Source: Bacteroidales bacterium | GTDB lineage: Bacteria; Bacteroidota; Bacteroidia; Bacteroidales; VadinHA17 | Length of the DNA: 12,751 bases | Assembly (NCBI GenBank): GCA_025455505.1 | Contig: JALOMK010000118.1 | Location: forward strand, 1-12,751 | Direction of reading: 5' to 3' | Shown here: piece after piece, positions 1,870-12,751 of the stretch | Position numbering within the stretch: the first letter of the stretch is position 1 | Layout of the letters: the number at the start of each line of letters is the position of its first letter | Translations under genes and position numbers: made by a program | Notes under the pieces: generated by a model | The model's database searches: none | Told to the model about the DNA's origin: nothing | The model's input: only the letters and a program-made list of their open reading frames with translations

Positions 1870-3480
1870 TCAGCTCAGCCAGATGTATATTGCCAGTGTT
1901 ACGGCTGAAAGTACCCCAAGCTGCAGCCTCCAGTCTTTCAGGCCTTCAAACCTCGCTATCCTGCCTTTGAAATCATAGGTTGTGTTTACAAGCTTATCAG
2001 GCGCTGTTTTTTCAGTGAAGGCTGAAACCGCAAACAAGACTGCAGTTATTATAATCTCAGCCCATAATCCCCTGTACCCGAAATTCAGCGTCAGATCGTG
2101 ATGCAGGAAGGGAAAAAGCTGCCTGCCTGTTTCCGGACCGAGGAACTGGTCAGTTACGAAAAGAGTCGCAAGCGCTATACCTGTTATAACAGATGCAGCG
2201 GCACCCTTAAGTGTAACTCTCCTGCTTACTATTCCAAAAAATATTGCAGGGAATACTGGTATTACAAGGTAGGCAGAAAGTGTCTGCAGGTATTTATACA
2301 AACCCTCCTCATTCCTGTAAACAAGCCAGGCTGCGCCGATCCCGAGTATTGTAACTATAACAATTATCACCCTGCCGAGAGACACCTGTCGCTTTTCGCC
2401 AAGTCCGGGTTTGAACTCCAGAATAAAATCCCTTACAACAAGTGTTGAGACTGAATTCAGAACAGCTATCAGGGATGTCACCAGGGCTGCCATGAGTGAG
2501 GCAAGCAGAAGTCCCCGAAGTCCGGTTGGAAGCAGGTTGTTCAGAAGAAGAACAAAAGTCTGCTTCGTTGAATCACCCTCAAGTTCTCCGGGGAAAAGGG
2601 CATAGGCGATAACCCCCGGGAGTGCAAAAATAAAAAGAGGAAGCAGCTTCAGAGTCACTGCCAGCATCGAACCCCACCTGGCCTGTCGTATATCACGGGC
2701 AGCAAGCACCCTTTGCACGTTGACCTGGTCGATGCCCCAGTAAAAAATACCGGCGTAAAATGCTGTTGCCAGTATACCCCAGAAGGGATAAACCTGGTCC
2801 CCGGGACGATTGATCGTCATCATTTCCGGCACCTTATCCATTAACCCTTCCCATCCGCCAACCCTGACAAGTCCTGTTATTACCATTATCGATGAACCAA
2901 GAATCATTATTATCACCTGGATGACGTCAGAGTACGCGACAGCTGTAAAACCACCGACAATTGTGAATATTGCCACTCCCGCAGCTATCCAGCATACTGT
3001 TGTCATTACGTTCCAGCCTACGAGGCTGTTCAGTACAAGTGCTCCTGCAAACAGAGTGAAGGCGAGCTTTGTCATTATGCTGATAATAAGCATCAGTCCC
3101 GAAAAGAAGGTTCTTGCTCTCCTGTTGTATCTCAGCTCAAGGAACTCCGGTATTGTATATATCCTGTTTTTCATATAGTAAGGAAACAGGAAGGCGCAGG
3201 CAAAACCGAGCGTTATGGCACATGTAAGTTCGACTGATCCTGCTGCGAGCCCGTACCTGTATGAATCGCCTGACAATCCCACAAGATGCTCTGCCCCTAT
3301 GTTCGTTGCAAAAAGAGAGGCCCCCACTACAGGCCAGCTCATCGACCGGCCTCCGAGGAAAAAACCCGAACTGTCCTTCGATGCATTCCTGCGCCAGGCC
3401 ATTATCAGCCCGAAAGACAGGCTTCCGCATATCATTATGAAGAGAATTATCCAGTCAAGCGTTCCGAGGGAGAGGTTCAT
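1870..3480 (-). CDS. SGLT-type sodium:sugar symporter (SSS family)
   Basis: A 536-residue polytopic membrane protein of the solute:sodium symporter family. The N-terminal region has FFLGGRSMSWPVVGASLFATN (about 40-60) and IGAEHLVGLSG (61-71), the pattern of helix 1 and its discontinuous sodium/sugar site in SGLT proteins. IVGGFTAVAYSDVIQ (174-188), DQVNVQRVLAARD (251-263) and LKLLPLFIFALPGVI (277-291) match SGLT sugar carriers better than proline or pantothenate carriers. It should bring a monosaccharide or small glycoside into the cytoplasm with Na+. Its ATG overlaps the stop of the upstream epimerase gene in an ATGA arrangement, so translation is coupled. Pairing an SGLT carrier with an AGE epimerase is a recurrent theme in Bacteroidota sugar operons, for example for mannosides or N-acyl sugars. 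The substrate itself is inferred only as 'a sugar acted on by this operon'. Confidence 0.88.
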   Translation of the reverse strand: MNLSLGTLDWIILFIMICGSLSFGLIMAWRRNASKDSSGFFLGGRSMSWPVVGASLFATNIGAEHLVGLSGDSYRYGLAAGSVELTCAITLGFACAFLFPYYMKNRIYTIPEFLELRYNRRARTFFSGLMLIISIMTKLAFTLFAGALVLNSLVGWNVMTTVCWIAAGVAIFTIVGGFTAVAYSDVIQVIIMILGSSIMVITGLVRVGGWEGLMDKVPEMMTINRPGDQVYPFWGILATAFYAGIFYWGIDQVNVQRVLAARDIRQARWGSMLAVTLKLLPLFIFALPGVIAYALFPGELEGDSTKQTFVLLLNNLLPTGLRGLLLASLMAALVTSLIAVLNSVSTLVVRDFILEFKPGLGEKRQVSLGRVIIVIVTILGIGAAWLVYRNEEGLYKYLQTLSAYLVIPVFPAIFFGIVSRRVTLKGAAASVITGIALATLFVTDQFLGPETGRQLFPFLHHDLTLNFGYRGLWAEIIITAVLFAVSAFTEKTAPDKLVNTTYDFKGRIARFEGLKDWRLQLGVLSAVTLAIYIWLS

Positions 3481-4763
3481 ACGATTTCATTTTGGAATTT
3501 GTCTTCAATCTTCCTGAGCCTGTCAATGGATTGTATCATTGATCGCACAGTATGGTAGTTTATCTTCCATGAATGGCTCATGTGGGTCCATACGGGTTCG
3601 CCCTTTCTCGACATGAGGGGAAACCACTCTCCCACTCCCCTGTTGACCATCCTGTCGAGCACAAAGCGGTGAACGTTTTTGTATGCTTCCCAATATTTTC
3701 TATCGCCGAAGATAATGACGGCATCGAGCAGGCCAATCAGCACCTCTGCCTGCTGCCAGAACTCCTTCTCCCTGTCATAAACCCCGCCTGCATGCGGACC
3801 CTCCACATAAACGCCCCCGAATTCCCGGTCAATTCCGTTGTCAACTGTATGGTCGAATATTTTCCTTAAAACATCAGAATATTCATTCCTGTCAGCCTTT
3901 AAAATATCGAGGGCATGAATAAGAAGCCATGCGAATTCGGCATTGTGCCCGTAACAGGTATTGTCAGTGGCATTCCCCTTGCTCCCTTCCGCGGAAAACC
4001 TGTCCCATCCCCAGATTATGTCGAATTTTATCTGGGGTGCGATGCTCCAGTCCCTGTAGAACTGGGGTATGCCGGTTTTGTAAGCAGGATGAAGAATTCT
4101 CTTCAAAAGCAACTCAATTACTTCAAGGAGTTTGCGCCTGTGAACCTCCTCACCAGTACATTCATAAAGAGTTGTGAAGGCTTCCATAAGGTGCATGTGC
4201 ACATCCATGGTTTTCCTGTCGCCTCCACTGCTCCCGGGCCCGCTGAGGTTCCACTGCCTGCCGAACATCTCAAAATAACCGCCATGCATTGTGTCGGTGC
4301 AGTGTTTCTGAATAAGGTCGAACAGCATGCAGGCATATTCTGCCCCGGCCGGATCGCCTGTGGCCAGGGTGTATTCACTCAGCGAGTAGATTGCAAAGCT
4401 CTGGCCGTAAAGTACCTTGCTGTCGATTGTTACTTCGCCCTCCCTGTTGCACATCCAGAAGAACCCTCCCGCTTCCCTGTCCCACATTTTACTGATGAGG
4501 AAATCAATTCCATGTGCGGCAAGGTCCTTAAAGTCACCATTTGCGTAACCTGCCCTCAACGCCGATGACATAGTATAAAGGGAACGTGTCTGTGAAATGA
4601 GCGATTTCTCATCTTCGCCACTATCGTTGCCAAACCTGTCGAAATGAGTAAGGTATCCTCCGTTCCTGCTGTCCTTTATTCTTTTGAGCCAGAACGGAAG
4701 CAGTTCGTTGTTAAGATGGTTTTCGAGCTCCTCCCTGAGGGCCTTCACTTCGCTTGTATCCAT
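3477..4763 (-). CDS. AGE-family sugar 2-epimerase (cellobiose 2-epimerase/N-acylglucosamine 2-epimerase type)
   Basis: A 428-residue soluble enzyme with the (alpha/alpha)6-barrel pattern of the N-acylglucosamine 2-epimerase superfamily; the length is normal. Visible signatures are SQTRSLYTMSSALR (57-70), YGQSFAIYSLSEY (119-131), MDVHMHLMEAFTTLY (186-200), TCYGHNAEFAWLL (269-281), KEFWQQAEVL (333-342) and a C-terminal HSWKINYHTVRSM (397-409). In cellobiose 2-epimerases the equivalents of the HMHLMEA, YGHNAE and WK..YH histidines (here about H191, H273, H404) form the catalytic set, and all three are present. The family inverts C2 of free glucose/mannose-type aldoses, N-acylhexosamines or beta-1,4-disaccharides in the cytoplasm. 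The YGHNAEFAWLL form leans toward the cellobiose/mannose-epimerase side, but the substrate is not fixed. It starts 6 bases after the DHS-like gene and overlaps the symporter start by ATGA, so sugar import and epimerisation are coupled. Confidence 0.85.
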   Translation of the reverse strand: MDTSEVKALREELENHLNNELLPFWLKRIKDSRNGGYLTHFDRFGNDSGEDEKSLISQTRSLYTMSSALRAGYANGDFKDLAAHGIDFLISKMWDREAGGFFWMCNREGEVTIDSKVLYGQSFAIYSLSEYTLATGDPAGAEYACMLFDLIQKHCTDTMHGGYFEMFGRQWNLSGPGSSGGDRKTMDVHMHLMEAFTTLYECTGEEVHRRKLLEVIELLLKRILHPAYKTGIPQFYRDWSIAPQIKFDIIWGWDRFSAEGSKGNATDNTCYGHNAEFAWLLIHALDILKADRNEYSDVLRKIFDHTVDNGIDREFGGVYVEGPHAGGVYDREKEFWQQAEVLIGLLDAVIIFGDRKYWEAYKNVHRFVLDRMVNRGVGEWFPLMSRKGEPVWTHMSHSWKINYHTVRSMIQSIDRLRKIEDKFQNEIV

Positions 4764-4769
4764 ATGCTT

Positions 4770-5885
4770 TTAGTGGTGATTTAACATTTTATAAAGCGCC
4801 GGAAGGAATTCCCTGTTATCAGCTGAAAGGTAATCCATCTCACCCCCCATCCGCGCAAAGGTCTTGCAGTATCTCAGGTAGTATGCGGGATTATCAGGCG
4901 GAGGTTCCCCGGATTTCTTCCAGTCCCAGTCGGAAGCGGCCAGATCGACTACAAGCATATAATGGTCATGAATCCTGCTGTTCTCCTGTATCTTAATGTT
5001 TTGTGCCATTGAGAGGGCCTTCTCGAAGATCATCGGCGACATCACGGCAGAACCCACAGACAGGTAGACGCCGTTGCTGATGTCAAGTACCGAGCCAGCA
5101 AAGGAAAGGAAATCCCTGAGCGCAGTGCGGCCGACGGCAGCACCGTTGTTAAGGGGATGATTGTAGATTATATCGTGTCCGATCATCGGATGACCTGTAA
5201 AAGGAATTCCAAGTTCCCAGGCTGCCGCCTGTACTGAAAATGACTTGAATGGATGGGATATTTGCATAAAGCCCGGGCTGATTCCGAACCTGGCTATTGT
5301 TCCGGCCAGATCGAGAGCGGCCGCAGCCTTGTCAGGATCGGCAGTCAGGATCTCTGAGGCTTCTTTCAGCAGGCTGTCCCGTGCCGGTATCATTAATCCT
5401 CCCTCACTTATCATTTTTCCAACTGAATCTCCGTATCCAAGGCCGCAATAAGCCCCTGTTATTATTGCAAGGTTGATATAGAAGCCTGTTTCATGCCATA
5501 TTCCGAACTTTCCCTCACCTACATTTACCTTTACATCCTCGCTTGAACGTCCCTGGAAAGCGAATTCCCAGTCATGAATTATCCCTGCACCGTTGGTAGC
5601 CAGATGTGTAAGCCATCCCTGCTTCATAAGTTCAATCAGCACAGGTGCATTCCCGTTCTTAATGGCATGAGCTCCGAAAGCAATTATAACTGAAGCACCA
5701 TTCTCCCTGGCACCACGTATCTTCCCTGCCGCCTTAAGCGCTGCAGCCTCCGTTCCTGGCGGGAATCGGTCGTCAGGACCCGGAAGCCTGATATTATCCT
5801 TCTCAATAAATACCTTATCGATTCGCTCCGACAGGCTTCTTACCCTGAGCAAATCCCTGTTGATTACTTTCCTTTCCTTTTTCAT
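4770..5885 (-). CDS. Uncharacterised deoxyhypusine-synthase-like protein
   Basis: A 371-residue soluble protein without signal peptide or membrane segment. Its pattern recalls a bacterial group loosely described as deoxyhypusine-synthase-like: FGAHAIKNGNAPVLIELM (70-87), THLATNGAGIIHDWEFAFQG (93-112), SSEDV (114-118), GEGKFGIWHETG (123-134), FTGHPMIGHDIIYNHPLNNG (229-248), DFLSFAGSV (258-266) and YLSVGSAVMSPMIFEKAL (274-291). The glycine-rich NGAG.IHD segment and the GSAV motif suggest a Rossmann-like nucleotide-binding core. True deoxyhypusine synthases modify eIF5A, which bacteria lack, so another reaction is likely, perhaps an NAD-dependent step on a sugar or sugar phosphate; that is inference. 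The ATG overlaps the upstream HAD stop (ATGA) and the epimerase follows 6 bases after its stop, placing it inside the operon. I know of no established function for this group. Confidence 0.6.
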   Translation of the reverse strand: MKKERKVINRDLLRVRSLSERIDKVFIEKDNIRLPGPDDRFPPGTEAAALKAAGKIRGARENGASVIIAFGAHAIKNGNAPVLIELMKQGWLTHLATNGAGIIHDWEFAFQGRSSEDVKVNVGEGKFGIWHETGFYINLAIITGAYCGLGYGDSVGKMISEGGLMIPARDSLLKEASEILTADPDKAAAALDLAGTIARFGISPGFMQISHPFKSFSVQAAAWELGIPFTGHPMIGHDIIYNHPLNNGAAVGRTALRDFLSFAGSVLDISNGVYLSVGSAVMSPMIFEKALSMAQNIKIQENSRIHDHYMLVVDLAASDWDWKKSGEPPPDNPAYYLRYCKTFARMGGEMDYLSADNREFLPALYKMLNHH

Positions 5886-7036
5886 TGCATATTTAGAAGA
5901 TCCAGGATTTGTACATAACCTGAAAAATCGGGTATTACAAGACCCGCTCCTGCCTTGATAAGGCGGGATCTTTTGCGTTGATTGAGCCCGTATCGTCTCA
6001 GTTCGTTGGAAGCCACGCCAATTGCGAATCCGCCCCTTTTTACTGTCTCCCTTACTTCCACCGGTCCATCGCCGAAAGTGAGCACTACCCCGGCTGTTGC
6101 TCCACCGATTGAACCAAGGATCTTATCGAGCACAACCTTCTTGGCCTCTGTGTTGATGTCTCCCACAGCGCCAAAGATCCTGCCCCCGAAGAGATCCGCA
6201 TAGCCGAGGATTTCAGCCTCCCTCTGTACGTCGGAGGTATCGGTGCCGCTGGCAAGGTAAAGCAGGACACCACGATCATGAAGCGCTTTGAGAAATGCAA
6301 CTGCTCCCTTGATTGTAAGATCGCTTATCCCGAGCTCCTTTCTTCCAAGCTTTCCAGTCCTTGCATCCACAACCTTCATCAGTTCAGTGTTATATATCCT
6401 CTTGTAGCCATGCTCATCAAGTATTCTGCCAGCCGGTACAAAACCATATTCCTTCACAATTGAAGCGAGACCGGCCATCTGGACAAGGGTCTGCACCCCT
6501 GTGGTTTTATCGATGAAATCATCCACTCTCGCCCTGACTGTCCTGTGGAGGGAATCATCCTCACCGGTGAACCTGTCCCCGAGTATTTCCCTGACCATCA
6601 TCGGGGCCATAACATTTTCCCAGCCTTCGCGCAGGGTCGATATAGTCCCGTCGTGATCAAAAATAACATGATTGAAGCGCCGGCCGCGTTCCGGCCAACT
6701 TATTATCTCAATTTCCGATCCCTCGAGGTAATGCGCATTATGCTCATTTTCTGCGAGGTCCGGGGAATAAACAAGGTCAGGATCGGTTCCTGCCTGCAGT
6801 ATCTCAGCAGGACTGGCAGTGCCGGTCTGAAAAAGTTTCTGCACTGTGACCCCGGCAACATAGGTCCCGAGTGTTGCAGCCTCTTCAAGCCCGCAGCCTG
6901 CTGCAAGCGCCGCAGCAACACCTGACAGGTAGCTGTCACCGGCACCTACAGTATCGACACGGGAGTTTATCATGAGCCCGGGGATCTCTTTAATACCGGA
7001 TGAGTCACAGAAAAAGGGGTTTCCCGGATCCGGCAA
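5882..7036 (-). CDS. C-terminal part of PfkB kinase fused to HAD-superfamily phosphatase (downstream half of split gene)
   Basis: 384 codons if read from the first ATG, but the true protein probably began at 7754. Residues 11-80 are the end of a PfkB/ribokinase fold: DSSGIKEIPG, then DTVGAGDS (28-35), the PfkB anion hole and catalytic aspartate, then GTYVAGVTVQK. Residues 120-384 form a HAD domain: motif I FDHDGT (126-131, D127 nucleophile, D129 acid), motif II LYLASGTD (259-266), a lysine near 299-300, and motif IV TFGDGPVE (320-327). About 130 residues between motifs I and II make a C1-type cap as in phosphoglycolate-phosphatase-like enzymes, unlike the capless GmhB. The assumed role is phosphorylating a sugar and removing a phosphate from the same or a related sugar. 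The kinase half here lacks its substrate-binding N-terminus, so alone only the HAD domain could be active. It ends in an ATGA overlap with the DHS-like gene. Confidence 0.75.
   Translation of the reverse strand: MPDPGNPFFCDSSGIKEIPGLMINSRVDTVGAGDSYLSGVAAALAAGCGLEEAATLGTYVAGVTVQKLFQTGTASPAEILQAGTDPDLVYSPDLAENEHNAHYLEGSEIEIISWPERGRRFNHVIFDHDGTISTLREGWENVMAPMMVREILGDRFTGEDDSLHRTVRARVDDFIDKTTGVQTLVQMAGLASIVKEYGFVPAGRILDEHGYKRIYNTELMKVVDARTGKLGRKELGISDLTIKGAVAFLKALHDRGVLLYLASGTDTSDVQREAEILGYADLFGGRIFGAVGDINTEAKKVVLDKILGSIGGATAGVVLTFGDGPVEVRETVKRGGFAIGVASNELRRYGLNQRKRSRLIKAGAGLVIPDFSGYVQILDLLNMQ
7005..7036 (-). other. Frameshift/deletion junction within the PfkB kinase
   Basis: Minus-strand sequence here is ccctttttctgtgactca. 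The upstream frame reads G-K-P-L-F-L then TGA; the downstream +1 frame reads C-D-S-S-G-I-K-E-I-P-G and continues to DTVGAGDS. PfkB/HldE relatives usually have a segment of roughly eight to nine residues (a TRG..G-type turn and strand) between the GKP.F. strand and the next strand, and it is missing in either frame. A deletion whose length is not a multiple of three therefore explains the data better than a single-base error. Confidence 0.7.
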
Positions 7037-7754
7037 ACAAGCTTTCAGCGTACTTGCTCACCTCGCTGAACGGCATTTTATCATCGGGGGATTTATCAGC
7101 TCCGCAAAGGCGTGCCGCTTCGGTATCGTTCATTTTTCTTATCGCGGCTCCGAACTGGTCATTGTAATTGCGGCTGTCAGCGATAATTATCTTTTCCGGG
7201 TGCCTGGCAATAAGTCGGACAAGCTTTTCCCTGAAGTAGTCAGTATGAATACCCGACGGGACCTGCTGGTTGATTATCACAGCGTCCGCTGAGAGCAGGG
7301 AGCTTTCAAAATCAGACAGGAGCAAGTCGGCAGTCGAGTCGTAAAGTTTATTGAAATTCCCGAAATCAATCCTTCCAAGCTCCTTGTCGCCCGTATAAGG
7401 TTTTGAATATGTGTGGGTCTGCCACTCGCTGTCCTGGAAAAGCATGTGCCCCGAATTGATCCCAAGGGTTCTCATTATTTCAAGCATCTGGTTACCGAAA
7501 GGATCATGGCCTGCGACCCCAAAGGCCAGAACTTCGCCAACTCCCATTGCTGCCAGGTTGGCTGCGACATTTCCCGCTCCGCCAAGAGAGTATTTCTGAC
7601 GGCACACAGGGTGCGTTGGCTCGCCAGTTTCTATCGAGATCTCACTCGCCGATTCATCGATGAACCAGTAAGCGTCGAGACAAAAATCTCCTATAACAAT
7701 AATCCGTGTCCTGCTGACATTCTCCAGCAGCTTTTGCAATTGTTCCCTCTTCAT
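7005..7754 (-). CDS. N-terminal part of HldE/RfaE-like PfkB sugar kinase (upstream half of split gene)
   Basis: 249 codons ending at a TGA (7005-7007) that interrupts the kinase domain. Residues 17-32 (RIIVIGDFCLDAYWFI) and SLGGAGNVAANLAAMG (56-71) followed by FGVAGHDPFG (78-87) are the N-terminal strand and substrate/lid glycine motif of HldE/RfaE-type PfkB kinases, which phosphorylate C1 of heptose-7-phosphate; related PfkB enzymes act on other sugars. The catalytic DTVGAGDS lies downstream in another frame (5882-7036), so this half cannot be a working kinase alone. The intact parent would have been about 630 residues: kinase then HAD phosphatase, with no nucleotidyltransferase domain as in HldE. 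The ATG at 7754 starts three bases after the TAG of the SIS isomerase gene, which supports this start and coupling. An assembly or sequencing error, or true decay, are both possible. Confidence 0.75.
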   Translation of the reverse strand: MKREQLQKLLENVSRTRIIVIGDFCLDAYWFIDESASEISIETGEPTHPVCRQKYSLGGAGNVAANLAAMGVGEVLAFGVAGHDPFGNQMLEIMRTLGINSGHMLFQDSEWQTHTYSKPYTGDKELGRIDFGNFNKLYDSTADLLLSDFESSLLSADAVIINQQVPSGIHTDYFREKLVRLIARHPEKIIIADSRNYNDQFGAAIRKMNDTEAARLCGADKSPDDKMPFSEVSKYAESLFAGSGKPLFL

Positions 7755-7757
7755 TTT

Positions 7758-8396
7758 CTATCCGTATAGTTCTTCTTCAAGAATCCTGCATAGGGTATGG
7801 TAAAGGGGCAGGTGAAGTTCCTGCACCCTGGCTGTTTCAGTTTCAGGCACATTCAGAAGAATGTCGCACATCGCAGCCATGGCTCCGCCGGATTTCCCTG
7901 TAAGACAGATTACCTTCATGCCCGCTGACCTTGCTGTAATTATTGCATCTATTACATTCTGTGAGTTGCCCGATGTGCTGATTGCAATCAGGATGTCCGA
8001 ATCGCGGCCATAGCTCACTACCTGCTGGGCAAATACGAGTGAGGGATCGGTGTCGTTGGCCACTGCGGTCATTAGTCCGGCATGGGAGGCAAGCGATATT
8101 ACAGGCAGACCCTGTTGAAGCTTCCCCGCAAGCCAGGCACCCCTATGCCCGCCTGTTGCAATAAGGCCCGATTGCACTGAAGCTTCCAGGGGCCTTGGCT
8201 TTTCAAAGCCCTTTAAAAGTTCGCCTGCAATATGATCAGCGTCGGCTGCGCTTCCGCCGTTGCCGCAGATCAGAAGCTTCCCCCCGTTTCTGAAGCAGTC
8301 TGTAAGAAGAGAAGCTGCGTTCAGGATTGAGCTCCCCAGAGGCTGAAGCCCGGGAAACCTTCCTGTAAGTTCATCAATATAATTGCTGGCTTTCAT
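7758..8396 (-). CDS. GmhA-like SIS-domain phosphosugar isomerase
   Basis: A 212-residue cytoplasmic protein with the SIS fold of sedoheptulose-7-phosphate isomerases. LLICGNGGSAADADHIAGEL (41-60) is the phosphate-binding loop plus two zinc-ligand positions (H55, E59), and ISTSGNSQNVIDAI (139-152) is the second SIS loop. The C-terminal VQELHLPLYHTLC (191-203) supplies Q192 and H200 with the same spacing as the Q172/H180 zinc ligands of E. coli GmhA. The zinc-site residues seen in E. coli GmhA therefore appear conserved. The loop between the first helix and GLMTAVANDTD (about 61-116) is longer than in E. coli GmhA. GmhA proper converts sedoheptulose-7-phosphate to heptose-7-phosphate; here a different phosphosugar is possible. 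It is the first gene of the tight operon, 37 bases after the MFS stop, and precedes the kinase by 3 bases. I give no symbol because the canonical heptose pathway is incomplete here. Confidence 0.82.
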   Translation of the reverse strand: MKASNYIDELTGRFPGLQPLGSSILNAASLLTDCFRNGGKLLICGNGGSAADADHIAGELLKGFEKPRPLEASVQSGLIATGGHRGAWLAGKLQQGLPVISLASHAGLMTAVANDTDPSLVFAQQVVSYGRDSDILIAISTSGNSQNVIDAIITARSAGMKVICLTGKSGGAMAAMCDILLNVPETETARVQELHLPLYHTLCRILEEELYG

Positions 8397-8433: not shown

Positions 8434-9681
8434 TTACTTTTTGTCGTCAGTCAGGTTTGATGTTACAGGTCTGAGAAGAAGAAGCTGAAGTATGATTGCT
8501 GCAACAACAAATACAGAAAGGAAGGCAATGTCCCTTGCCAGGTTTCCGGAATCTGCCGACTTTCCCAGGAAAGAAGTAATCACTGCGCCGGAGGATATTC
8601 CTGCAAGGTTCATTAGCCCATAACCTGTTGCCCTGTACCGTGGTGAAGCGAACTGGCATAATATTGGCATGCAGTTGACATCGAACATTCCGAAACCAAA
8701 ACCAAAACAGGCTGCCCCTCCGAGCAAGCGGGGAAGCGTGTCCCCCGTGCCAAGCAGAATTACTGCCGGTATTGTAAGCCCCAGTCCGATTGCACCTGTG
8801 TAAATCCTTCCCCTCAGCGTGCTCTGCATCCACCTGTCGGCAGCAATACCCCCGGCAAGAACGCCGACAAGTGCTGACAGGGCAATAGTAATCGTGGAAA
8901 GAGGACCGGCAACCTCCATCCTTATTCCCAGCGATGTTGACAGCAGTGTCGGCAGCCAGTTTTTTGTAGCCCAGCCCGGCAGACTCGGGGCGGAAAAATA
9001 AAAAAGGATTACCCAGAAGGGAATGCTTCCAAGCAGTATGCCCATTCCCCTGAACGATTCTTTAAAACGCTGAAAAACACTTGCTGACGCATCCCTTACA
9101 ATTGAATAGGCTTTTTTCTCCCTGAGGAAAGCAATCAGGACGAAACTGTAAAGCAGGCCTGCCAGCCCGAATGAGAAAAAAGTTGCCTGCCAGGAAAAGT
9201 TTCCTGCTATCGTGGCCCCGAATCCGCCAAGGGCCTGGCCGAGATAGTTGCCTGTCATATGTATCCCGATTGCCAGCGACCTGCTTTTACCTTCGTGGTA
9301 GTCAGCAATAAGTGCAAGCCCCGCCGGCATGTAAAAAGCCTCGCTGATGCCCATTACAGCCCTGAGAATGTATAATTGCCTGAAAGTAGTCGCGAATCCC
9401 ATGAGGCAGGTAACACCCGACCATACGAAGAGGCTGAAAACTATCAGCCACTTTCTGTTAAGCCTGTCGGCGATAATCCCTGAAACAGGACTCATAAAGG
9501 CATATACCCATAGAAATATAGCCATCAGCCTTCCGAAATTGGCAGCCGACTGCAGTTCAGCAATATCAGCCATCATTGATGGCTTCATCGTTGAAAGCAT
9601 CTGCCTGTCTATATAATTAAGCAGGACGACGAACCAGAGAAGTCCGACAACAAGCCAGGGGTATGATTTGCGCTCAGTCAT
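8434..9681 (-). CDS. MFS transporter, sugar-acid/hexuronate (ACS-like) type
   Basis: A 415-residue inner-membrane protein with about 12 hydrophobic helices. LNYIDRQMLS (21-30) in helix 1, the MFS motif A equivalent GIIADRLNRKWLIV (68-81) between helices 2 and 3, and RAVMGISEAFYMPAGLALI (107-125) in helix 4 follow the pattern of the anion:cation symporter branch (hexuronate, glucarate and other organic-acid carriers). Later, FGFGFGMFDVNCMPI and ATGYGLMNL match helices 10-11 of the same group. It probably moves a sugar acid or other organic anion with H+ across the inner membrane. The neighbouring GH105 gene, whose family releases unsaturated uronic acids, makes a uronate substrate attractive, but this is inference. 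It is 74 bases downstream of the serine hydrolase and 37 bases upstream of the isomerase, so it may belong to the same transcript. Confidence 0.8.
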   Translation of the reverse strand: MTERKSYPWLVVGLLWFVVLLNYIDRQMLSTMKPSMMADIAELQSAANFGRLMAIFLWVYAFMSPVSGIIADRLNRKWLIVFSLFVWSGVTCLMGFATTFRQLYILRAVMGISEAFYMPAGLALIADYHEGKSRSLAIGIHMTGNYLGQALGGFGATIAGNFSWQATFFSFGLAGLLYSFVLIAFLREKKAYSIVRDASASVFQRFKESFRGMGILLGSIPFWVILFYFSAPSLPGWATKNWLPTLLSTSLGIRMEVAGPLSTITIALSALVGVLAGGIAADRWMQSTLRGRIYTGAIGLGLTIPAVILLGTGDTLPRLLGGAACFGFGFGMFDVNCMPILCQFASPRYRATGYGLMNLAGISSGAVITSFLGKSADSGNLARDIAFLSVFVVAAIILQLLLLRPVTSNLTDDKK

Positions 9682-9755: not shown

Positions 9756-11018
9756 TCAGTCGGAAAGTGACTGGTAAACCATGGTCCTGAATTTCTCATG
9801 AATCTCGCCATGATTGAATCCCATGTGCTGAAAGAACAGCAGAGCAACGATTTTTTCCTGAGGGTCAGCCCAGTATATCGTTGCAAAATATCCTCCCCAA
9901 CCAAATGATCCTTCGGATATTCCGTACCTCTTCTGTCCTTCTTCCGTAGTAACCTGGAATCCAAGCCCGAATTTATCGGCTCCCAGGCTAAGCTCCCCAA
10001 TCTGGTTGCATGTCATCAGGTCAACAGTCCTGCGCGCCAGTATCCTCTTCCCGTTATATTCGCCCTTGTTAAGAAGCATCTGGAGGAAAATGCCGTAATC
10101 CCTTGTAGTTGAGCTGAGTCCTGCCCCGCCTGAAAAGTATGTTCCGTCGACAAGAGGGTAATTCACAAAATCGTTGCTGAAGTTACCAAGCCTGTGGCCG
10201 CTGTCTTCTGCTGCAACCTTTACGAGTCTTTCCTTTTTCGGTTCCGGAAGATAGAACCAGGTGTCGTCCATCCCGAGCGGTTCAAAAAGGTGATTCTTCA
10301 GGTACACATCGAAGCTCTCCCCCGACACGACCTCGACAAGATATCCGAGAACGTCGGTATTCAGACCATATGTAAATCTTTCACCCGGGTTGTGCGCGAG
10401 AGGAAGCTTACCCAGGGCACGGATCTTCTCGCCAAGGTTTATTTTTTCACTAACAAATCCTGTCGGGATACCTGCCTTTGCATAGATTGCATTCATCATT
10501 GACGAACCAATGCCGGCATAGTCGATTCCTGAAGTGTGAGTAAGCAGGTCCCGGATAGTAACCTCTCTCTCTGCCGGGATTGTTGTATACGAGGTATCAG
10601 CCGGATTATACTTGTCAACTACTCCCGGACGGGAAAACTCAGGTATGTATTTTGAGATAGGATCATCGAGGAGGAACCTGCCCTCTTCAAAGAGCATCAT
10701 CACTGCAACGCTGGTTATGGCTTTTGTCTGGGATGCTATCCTGAAAATATTTTCAGTGGCCAGTGGAGTTTTCGCCTCAACATCACTGTAGCCGAAAGCC
10801 TTATCGTACACGATTTTTGAATCGCGTGCCATGAATGCCGCAGCCCCGGCAACCCAGCCGCTGTCGACAGCCTGCTGAAGCACCCTGTCAATTCGGGCCA
10901 GCCTCTCAGGTGAAACTTTCACCGATTCAGGTGAACCGGGGAGGAGTACCTGCGTTTCATTCCCCGTGCAAGAGGCAAGCAGAAGTACGCCTGCTAACAG
11001 AACCAAGACTTTTTTCAT
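9756..11018 (-). CDS. Serine-hydrolase lipoprotein, class C beta-lactamase/EstB-like family
   Basis: A 420-residue protein starting with a lipoprotein signal: MKK, a hydrophobic run, then LLAS-C with the lipidated cysteine at 17. It should therefore sit in the periplasm or outer envelope. The fold is that of serine beta-lactamase-like esterases and peptidases: S96-Q-T-K99 (SxxK nucleophile and base), LLTHTSGI (158-165), Y217-G-L-N220 as the YxN-like motif, and GSFGWGG near the C-terminus in place of KTG. FRIASQTKAIT and the GWGG ending are common in Bacteroidota esterase/transpeptidase-like paralogues and do not indicate antibiotic resistance. It could be a deacylase for substituted glycans or an unrelated housekeeping hydrolase. 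It lies 82 bases after the GH105 stop and 74 bases before the MFS gene on the same strand. Confidence 0.82.
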   Translation of the reverse strand: MKKVLVLLAGVLLLASCTGNETQVLLPGSPESVKVSPERLARIDRVLQQAVDSGWVAGAAAFMARDSKIVYDKAFGYSDVEAKTPLATENIFRIASQTKAITSVAVMMLFEEGRFLLDDPISKYIPEFSRPGVVDKYNPADTSYTTIPAEREVTIRDLLTHTSGIDYAGIGSSMMNAIYAKAGIPTGFVSEKINLGEKIRALGKLPLAHNPGERFTYGLNTDVLGYLVEVVSGESFDVYLKNHLFEPLGMDDTWFYLPEPKKERLVKVAAEDSGHRLGNFSNDFVNYPLVDGTYFSGGAGLSSTTRDYGIFLQMLLNKGEYNGKRILARRTVDLMTCNQIGELSLGADKFGLGFQVTTEEGQKRYGISEGSFGWGGYFATIYWADPQEKIVALLFFQHMGFNHGEIHEKFRTMVYQSLSD

Positions 11019-11100: not shown

Positions 11101-12201
11101 TTAATTTTCAGCTTTTTTCGGCTTTTCTTCTTTCTGCTTCTTTGGTTTTGGTTCCATTTCCTTTGAAAGCTTGTAGACTTCGCTTCCGGCAAGAAGGAAA
11201 CAGCCAAGCCCGAAGTCCTCGAAGTTGGGAACTATATCATAACCAACGGGCTGGCTGTCCTTTGGCTCCTTTCCCGTCCCCTGAACCCAGCCCAGGAAGC
11301 CGTTTTCATGAACGGATTCCTTTACCATTGCGTTCCAGGCCTTTGTAACTACAGGGAGGTAATCCTTTTTGCTTATCAGGCCCCTGTTTATACCCCAGGC
11401 CATTCCATATACGAAAAGCGAGGTTCCGGTAAGTTCCCTGCCACCAAAATGAGCGGGATCCTTAAGGCTTACATTCCAGTAGCCGTCCTCGCGCTGGAGC
11501 GGAACAAGGGCCTCAAGCATGTCCTTTAAAGTCTTTTCGTATTCACTTATATATTTGTTTTTTTCTGGAAGGGCTTCAATTGTCCGAACCAGAGCGGCAA
11601 CAACCCATCCGTTTCCCCTTGACCAATAGCAGTTTTCGCCGTTGGGTTCCTTGTAAGGAGGTACAAAATCCTTATCGCGCCACCAGAGCATTTCCTCAGG
11701 ATTATATAATCCGCTTGTGCCGTGCTTAAGTTTTGTAAACATGTACATTTCGTGCATGCGTTCAAAATATCTCTTGTCACGGTAAATAGTTCCAAGCCGG
11801 GCATATACTGGCATCGCCATCTGCAGGGCATCAATCCAGTTCCAGTCATCGATTTTGTCACTTGCGAGCATGTTATCGACAGAGGCCTTGATATCCCTGA
11901 TGCGTTCTTCCTTGTACCTGTCCATAAGGTACAGTTCTATGTATGTCTGTCCGCAGCACTGGTTATCGGCGTTCCTCGTTTTTACACCATCGCGAAGTCC
12001 CCATTTATGAAACTCTCCCCAGCGCAACATGTAGTCGAGGTATGAGGGGTCGGGATTCAGCCTGTAAAGAGCCATCAGTCCCTCGTAATAAACGCCTCTT
12101 GTCCAGATGTTGCTGGGCCGTTCACGTTCGGTGATTATTGTTTTACCTACATCCGGCCACTTTTCCATGAAATAGTGGTTAGCAAGAACCATGGCGTTCA
12201 T
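11101..12201 (-). CDS. GH105/GH88 unsaturated (rhamno)galacturonyl hydrolase, 5' end apparently lost
   Basis: 366 codons from the ATG at 12201. GH88/GH105 signatures are abundant: RPSNIWTRGVYYEGLMALY (28-46), ADNQCCGQTYIELY (78-91), WNWIDALQMAMPVYARLG (120-137), GLYNPEEMLWWRD (164-176), ENCYWSRGNGWVVAAL (189-204), REDGYWN (237-243), GGRELTGTSLF (253-263). D79 and D124 correspond to the aspartates used by YteR-type enzymes, which hydrate the double bond of unsaturated uronic acid-ended oligosaccharides from pectin or similar glycans. The domain starts immediately at residue 1, whereas Bacteroidota homologues usually carry a signal peptide first. The frame continues upstream with five codons (SSDET-like) to a TAG at 12217-12219, with no better start. 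The missing signal suggests loss of the 5' end or a cytoplasmic variant. The C-terminus has a lysine/glutamate-rich tail (from about 349). Confidence 0.82.
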   Translation of the reverse strand: MNAMVLANHYFMEKWPDVGKTIITERERPSNIWTRGVYYEGLMALYRLNPDPSYLDYMLRWGEFHKWGLRDGVKTRNADNQCCGQTYIELYLMDRYKEERIRDIKASVDNMLASDKIDDWNWIDALQMAMPVYARLGTIYRDKRYFERMHEMYMFTKLKHGTSGLYNPEEMLWWRDKDFVPPYKEPNGENCYWSRGNGWVVAALVRTIEALPEKNKYISEYEKTLKDMLEALVPLQREDGYWNVSLKDPAHFGGRELTGTSLFVYGMAWGINRGLISKKDYLPVVTKAWNAMVKESVHENGFLGWVQGTGKEPKDSQPVGYDIVPNFEDFGLGCFLLAGSEVYKLSKEMEPKPKKQKEEKPKKAEN

Positions 12202-12544: not shown

Positions 12545-12636
12545 TGGCGGAGAGAGAGGGATTTGAACCCTCGGTTGAGCTTTCGCCCAACACTCGCTTA
12601 GCAGGCGAGCGCCTTCGACCACTCGGCCATCTCTCC
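12545..12636 (-). tRNA. tRNA-Ser (anticodon GCT)
   Basis: The minus strand gives acceptor GGAGAGA (from 12636) pairing with TCTCTCC, discriminator G and a gene-encoded CCA (12545-12547). The D-loop block GGCCGAGTGGTCGAAGGC, an anticodon stem-loop with CTGCTAA (anticodon GCT, reading AGC/AGU), a long variable arm (TGTTGGGCGAAAGCTCAAC) and GGTTCAAATCC in the T-arm are all visible. The extended variable arm marks a class II serine tRNA. The length is 92 bases including CCA. Confidence 0.95.
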
Positions 12637-12663: not shown

Positions 12664-12751
12664 TGGCGGAGGGAGTAGGATTCGAACCCACGTCACGTTT
12701 CCGTGAAACGGTTTTCAAGACCGCCGCCTTCAACCACTCGGCCATCCCTCC
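12664..12751 (-). tRNA. tRNA-Ser (anticodon TGA)
   Basis: The minus strand starts at the last base of the window with acceptor GGAGGGA, pairing with TCCCTCC, discriminator G and encoded CCA (12664-12666). The D-arm GGCCGAGTGGTTGAAGGC, anticodon loop CTTGAAA (anticodon TGA, reading UCN codons), a long variable arm with the TTTCACGGAAACGTGA hairpin and GGTTCGAATCC T-arm identify a class II serine tRNA. It is transcribed ahead of tRNA-Ser(GCT), with only 27 AT-rich bases between them, so they probably form one transcript. Confidence 0.95.

Follow-up and report, generated by a model that had tools for sequence, protein, structure and literature searches.

The whole stretch of DNA that was analysed, the 12,751-nucleotide (nt) contig JALOMK010000118.1 of a Bacteroidales bacterium (hereafter the window; contig 85 of a 2.52 Mb draft genome that is 69% complete), carries five genes in tight series on the minus strand, from 8396 to 1870. 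They encode a GmhA-like isomerase, an HldA-like PfkB kinase fused to a HAD phosphatase, a GSU2086-family protein resembling deoxyhypusine synthase, an AGE-superfamily epimerase and a sodium/solute symporter (Table 1). This row of genes is an uncharacterised unit of wide occurrence. Tentatively, the window is read here as holding a minimal copy of a conserved two-block locus that combines a heptose-phosphate module with the use of a manno-configured sugar (mannose and/or manno-heptose), the substrate and the direction being what we infer. Block A consists of the epimerase and the symporter, and block B (the module) of the isomerase, the kinase-HAD and the GSU2086 protein. Judged by titles and the beginnings of abstracts, no paper describing the cluster was found, in keeping with an earlier reading of this DNA (the sequence-only reading), which had suggested that the route may be undescribed.

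Conservation of the locus was followed in the best 80 of 544 loci, annotated with profiles built here and sorted by hand into Bacteroidota and others from record titles (counts are lower bounds on short contigs), and in 60 related genomes; the two samples overlap in 13 contigs. Within 9 kilobases (kb) of the GSU2086 gene, the 49 Bacteroidota-labelled loci hold a kinase-HAD gene in 47 cases, an AGE gene in 31, a symporter in 30, GmhA in 26, GH38 in 17, GH92 in 14 and ROK in 14. Among the 31 other loci the corresponding numbers are 11 for kinase-HAD, 5 for GmhA, 3 for the symporter and 1 for AGE. The sequence-only reading had named clustering across distant taxa as its check and confinement to this genome as its refutation; these loci show clustering beyond this genome, and a cluster private to it is ruled out by them. 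GSU2086 is over its cut-off in 19 of the 60 genomes, and the genomes with a full-length kinase-HAD gene (split in the window's own) are precisely these 19, the other 41 all lacking it. A close epimerase (at least 635 bits) is present in 17 of these 19 module genomes versus 0/41. Within the window's genus, GSU2086 and kinase-HAD occur together in 17 of 36 genomes and one without the other in none.

In Prolixibacteraceae (Mariniphaga, Maribellus) the order is LacI, ROK, GmhA, GH38, GH92 or MFS, kinase-HAD and GSU2086, with AGE and the symporter, where present, following GSU2086 directly or a few genes on. GH38 and GH92 alpha-mannosidases thus stand beside the genes in relatives, and the setting is therefore one of alpha-mannoside use. 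N-termini appear to be of export type in the GH38, GH92 and Gfo/Idh copies shown (for GH38 four of 15 shown; for GH92 hydrophobic in 15/15). The neighbourhood resembles that of Bacteroidota alpha-mannoside utilisation loci with GH38/GH92; to our knowledge, a heptose-type module is not part of any such locus described. Links also exist outside the full cluster, as kinase-epimerase pairs (see below) and as HAD genes next to GH38. In a Calditrichaeota locus (L176), genes for a LacI-type regulator, a symporter, an aldolase-like protein, an HldE-nucleotidyltransferase-like protein (by eye), the kinase, HAD and GH38 are followed further on by GmhA, and in a Hydrogenedentota locus (L182) a separate HAD gene of the same subfamily adjoins GH38. 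The L176 cluster spans 8100-13444 and 14739-15575 and is perhaps a fuller version of the pathway. Tandem paralogues of a family of 400-450 amino acids lie beside kinase-HAD/GSU2086, often with GH92 (L087:765-4546, L126:727-8050, L125, L108, L089); their N-termini are hydrophobic in 24/25, and the one member scanned had no Pfam match.

The AGE protein is predicted to be a mannose-2-epimerase orthologue. Its match to PDB 8h1k extends over the full length (684.7 bits, 66.7% identity over 417 residues), and 8h1k-8h1n are presumably the mannose 2-epimerase of Runella slithyformis. The window gene differs from that of Runella in adjoining a symporter and heptose-type enzymes. The alternatives of an N-acetylglucosamine or cellobiose 2-epimerase were rejected, 8h1k scoring 685 bits against 184 for the best chain named cellobiose 2-epimerase. 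An AGE-family epimerase acting on an external sugar had been proposed from the sequence; the family was retained, and the protein, then an unspecified AGE member, is now placed as a mannose-2-epimerase orthologue in an alpha-mannoside setting. PMC13363691 cites Saburi 2019 and Wang 2023 (Runella slithyformis mannose 2-epimerase). At E <= 1e-150 the epimerase was found in 6 of 395 genomes of the class, the window's own counted. In three of the other five (G712, G681, G308) a kinase of the same subfamily directly adjoins it, with no GmhA, HAD or GSU2086 gene near the pair, and the remaining two have the epimerase without the module. Two-gene units of an HldA-like kinase and a mannose 2-epimerase lie at L188:8988-11325, L190:8414-10712 and L191:9022-11311, with no other module gene nearby. 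At L189, likewise with no module gene nearby, the epimerase starts almost as in 8h1k. The symporter scores 302 bits with TIGR00813, over the cut-off of 184, and thus belongs to that family.

The isomerase and the kinase-HAD bear out the heptose-type isomerase-kinase-phosphatase logic put forward in the sequence-only reading, and the closest solved relatives, by sequence and by fold, are heptose enzymes. Residues H55, E59, Q192 and H200 of the GmhA-like protein align with what we take to be the metal-site positions of E. coli GmhA; the protein scores 160.8 bits with TIGR00441 (gmhA), under the cut-off of 209.45 for GmhA of the ADP-heptose pathway. In this assembly the kinase gene is interrupted at about 7036 to 7005, with a PfkB match in both pieces and 37.6 bits for the HAD part (PF00702). 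With TIGR02198 (HldE/HldA kinase, cut-off 345) the score is 92.1 bits, measured on the N-terminal piece alone, and HldA is the best fold match for one intact orthologue. In relatives the intact kinase-HAD is a single protein of about 632 amino acids. Between two conserved landmarks in the gene there are 25 nt in the window versus 54 nt in 20/20 measurable orthologues (the other 31 of 51 did not fit the pattern used and were excluded), by which a simple one-base sequencing slip is ruled out. Either the gene has been lost in this strain or the assembly is in error there.

The GSU2086 protein belongs to family NF052581 (317.3 bits, cut-off 250) and has no Pfam match at E <= 1e-3. It shares the fold of deoxyhypusine synthase and of the LOR/SDH (AgrE/ArgZ C-terminal) domain at 10-20% identity, and differs from these in its sugar gene context and its lack of a Pfam match; deoxyhypusine synthase proper was rejected on the latter ground. 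In Geobacter sulfurreducens the gene order is GSU2085 hldE, GSU2086, GSU2087 gmhA, so that the family has GmhA and a heptose-type kinase as neighbours there too. The window differs in its 371-amino-acid form and in the absence of an adenylyltransferase (the alignment being with short forms of the phylum). Seven aligned short forms are 28-32% identical to the window protein, which in a tree lies on a long branch (0.98) among mostly non-Bacteroidota sequences, at a fork with support 91/86 where long-branch placement is unsure. At least 6326 relatives at E <= 1e-3 were present among 8000 scored candidates, and every name shown among the 120 listed is 'hypothetical protein'. In the literature searched, GSU2086 turned up in one paper, as a row of a table. 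A gene set that ties it to heptose enzymes and alpha-mannoside use makes its function directly testable.

Short GSU2086 forms occur in 13 further sampled genomes of the phylum (14/296 over the cut-off including the window's own). In both loci scanned, L047 (under the curated cut-off) and L084, the second gene upstream is of heptosyltransferase type. At L045, L047, L048 and L055 the short form adjoins a gene that matches a CPBP-type intramembrane protease family below cut-off, and DUF3108 genes directly precede GSU2086 in both Pfam-scanned loci (L074, L084). One protein of 693 amino acids (P0114) has two tandem GSU2086-type domains, read by eye. Around GSU2086 genes that stand alone in other phyla, no shared theme among the neighbours was apparent by eye.

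The locus is not the standard ADP-heptose pathway (GmhA, HldE or HldA with HldC, GmhB, HldD). It shares with that pathway the GmhA metal-site residues, kept in the window, a kinase whose sequence and fold are nearest to HldA, and the joining of kinase to phosphatase; it differs in that the HAD is fused to the kinase, GmhA is under its curated cut-off and relatives have an alpha-mannosidase setting. In addition, 18 of the 19 module genomes contain neither the adenylyltransferase (TIGR02199, rfaE_dom_II) nor HldD (TIGR02197) above cut-off, G042 being the exception for both. The adenylyltransferase is over cut-off in 13 of the 60 genomes, and weaker matches are common. The lack of a nucleotidyltransferase, pointed out in the sequence-only reading, was confirmed for the window, and TIGR02199 had no match in its genome, which is only 69% complete.

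GSU2086 proteins track heptose genes outside the module. All 13 short-form genomes have the adenylyltransferase over cut-off, and none of them HldD at E <= 1e-50. Among 17 hand-picked controls without GSU2086 over cut-off (five with sub-cut-off NF052581 matches of 19.8-28.1 bits), the adenylyltransferase is present in 11 (in G100 with a score slightly below cut-off), and all of these except G092, 10 genomes, also carry HldD (Fisher 6e-6). Four further adenylyltransferase genomes come from the order-level sample: G038 has HldD without GSU2086, G042 has all three, and G036 and G050 lack both GSU2086 and an HldD over cut-off. Pooled, HldD is found in 1/14 genomes with the GSU2086 family versus 11/14 without (Fisher 3e-4; excluding G009, in which the adenylyltransferase match is broken and under cut-off and HldD scores 208 bits), and with one count per family in 1/6 versus 10/12 (Fisher 0.013). 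The Fisher values ignore kinship, and lineage effects remain in the HldD counts.

The conserved GSU2086-family protein may be a new kind of sugar epimerase. A bolder, unlikely proposal is that it acts on (ADP-)manno-heptose or its phosphates as an NAD-dependent C6-epimerase with a deoxyhypusine-synthase fold, replacing HldD, and that the cluster is at the same time a catabolic route by which L-glycero-D-manno-heptose, released by GH38/GH92 from lipopolysaccharide-type glycans, is converted to sedoheptulose-7-phosphate. A replacement of HldD by GSU2086 would mean that a classic step in lipopolysaccharide synthesis has been solved in a second way, and heptose breakdown by the cluster would show the fate of a common Gram-negative surface sugar. 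The search for literature on heptose catabolism returned one paper, which concerns ADP-heptose synthesis.

In the two-block locus proposed here, block A (elsewhere also with GH38/GH92, ROK, MFS and LacI) would free, import and epimerise the sugar. Alpha-mannosidases outside the cytoplasm would set free mannose or a sugar resembling it, which would then be imported by the Na+ symporter and converted from the manno to the gluco form by the mannose 2-epimerase. Block B would act on a heptose-type phosphate: GmhA may interconvert a ketose-7-phosphate (sedoheptulose-7-phosphate) and manno-heptose-7-phosphate, the kinase would phosphorylate C1 and the HAD part take off a phosphate, and the GSU2086 protein, with bound NAD, could oxidise and then re-reduce one carbon. 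A heptose as the substrate of block B, use rather than synthesis, NAD binding and entry of the block A product into block B are steps that we infer. The L-glycero-D-manno-heptose of lipopolysaccharide has a mannose ring. Such a heptose could in principle be released by a mannosidase, epimerised, phosphorylated and isomerised to sedoheptulose-7-phosphate, and the locus might work in this way.

Several observations weigh against the two-block reading. The window has no GH38, GH92 or ROK gene; the PDB record of 8h1k names it N-acylglucosamine 2-epimerase, its mannose activity being presumed. With the kinase broken in this assembly, the pathway may be non-functional in this strain, and fusion of a phosphatase to the kinase is also odd for a purely degradative route. 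A close GmhA (at least 222 bits) is found in 15 of the 19 module genomes versus 3 of the 41 others, the four without it having distant matches (G004 and G030, 94 and 98 bits), a partial one of 82 bits (G021) or none (G017). Near GSU2086, 20 of the 31 non-Bacteroidota loci lack kinase-HAD (some contigs are short), and in 22 genomes with GSU2086 genes a kinase or HAD match (E <= 1e-20) occurs in only 12; since many GSU2086 loci and genomes lack kinase or HAD, the protein has a role without the module. Lastly, several relatives carry AGE and the symporter on the opposite strand (e.g. L028, L029, L032, L037), and therefore the two blocks may be no more than neighbours.

This last point is the basis of a decidedly unlikely alternative, in which mannose uptake/epimerisation and the heptose-like module are unrelated transcription units, adjacent by chance or joint transfer. 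Against it, the epimerase follows the module over the 60 genomes, even on a separate contig (G007, G012, G014, G022), and the genes are tightly packed on one strand in the window, L031, L034, L035 and L038. A somewhat unlikely account holds that GmhA-, HldA- and HAD-like enzymes were recruited to mannose or fructose phosphates, the locus serving plain catabolism of mannose from alpha-mannan or N-glycans. GH38, GH92, ROK and the mannose 2-epimerase all suit mannose, the isomerase and the N-terminal kinase piece both fall under curated heptose cut-offs, and three genomes of the class pair the kinase with the epimerase alone. However, the epimerase and a hexokinase such as ROK (near 14/49 loci) would suffice to convert mannose to glucose-6-phosphate, leaving the rest superfluous, and both the heptose enzymes as closest solved relatives and the tracking of heptose genes by GSU2086 elsewhere speak for a heptose.

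Synthesis has also to be considered. The isomerase, kinase and phosphatase are activities of nucleotide-heptose synthesis, and at L176 an HldE-nucleotidyltransferase-like gene directly precedes the kinase, HAD and GH38, which would fit a module that turns sedoheptulose-7-phosphate into a sugar-1-phosphate, to be used by an unrecognised nucleotidyltransferase for a glycan, and that is only co-regulated with mannoside use. This is quite unlikely, given that TIGR02199 is below cut-off in 18/19 genomes (with weaker matches in many), that LacI, exported mannosidases and symporters accompany the relatives' genes and that only 17/36 genomes of the genus have the module. Standard ADP-heptose synthesis for lipopolysaccharide, to which the GmhA- and HldA-like enzymes and the Geobacter neighbours would point, is highly improbable and was rejected, already contradicted by the adenylyltransferase and HldD counts (1/19 each); it would require an adenylyltransferase and an epimerase that escaped recognition.

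Table 1. Genes of the five-gene row and the preceding transporter gene in the window
Feature	Position	Strand	Details
GmhA-like SIS-domain sugar-phosphate isomerase	7758..8396	-	212 amino acids; SIS_2 81.6 bits
PfkB (HldA-like) kinase fused to HAD phosphatase	5882..7754	-	two frames, 7754-7005 and 7036-5882
GSU2086-family (deoxyhypusine synthase-like) protein	4770..5885	-	371 amino acids; NF052581 317.3 bits
AGE-superfamily epimerase, predicted mannose-2-epimerase orthologue	3477..4763	-	428 amino acids; GlcNAc_2-epim 159.5 bits
Sodium/solute symporter (SSF, SGLT-like)	1870..3480	-	536 amino acids; PF00474 227.3 bits
MFS transporter, perhaps an earlier member of this run	8434..9681	-	PF07690 158.1 bits

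The isomerase and kinase-HAD genes are 3 nt apart, the latter overlaps that of the GSU2086 protein by 4 nt, 6 nt separate this from AGE, and AGE and the symporter overlap by 4 nt, which agrees with the five tightly coupled genes (3 nt, ATGA, 6 nt, ATGA) described in the sequence-only reading. Its view of them as one operon stands for the tight row in the window, and not as a fixed arrangement, given the strand of AGE and the symporter in several relatives. The run may begin upstream, at the MFS gene, which ends 37 nt upstream of GmhA on the same strand; at L038 a 756-bit homologue of this gene lies upstream of GmhA with one HAD gene intervening. Scans for sigma-70 promoter-like sites (13 versus 10.1 +/- 3.3 in shuffles) and terminator-like sites (17 versus 10.6 +/- 3.1) were uninformative. 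Further upstream, on the operon's strand, are genes for a serine-hydrolase/beta-lactamase-fold protein (9756-11018) and a GH88-type hydrolase (11101-12201), with two tRNA-Ser genes (GCT, TGA; 12545-12636 and 12664-12751, minus strand) upstream of the latter.

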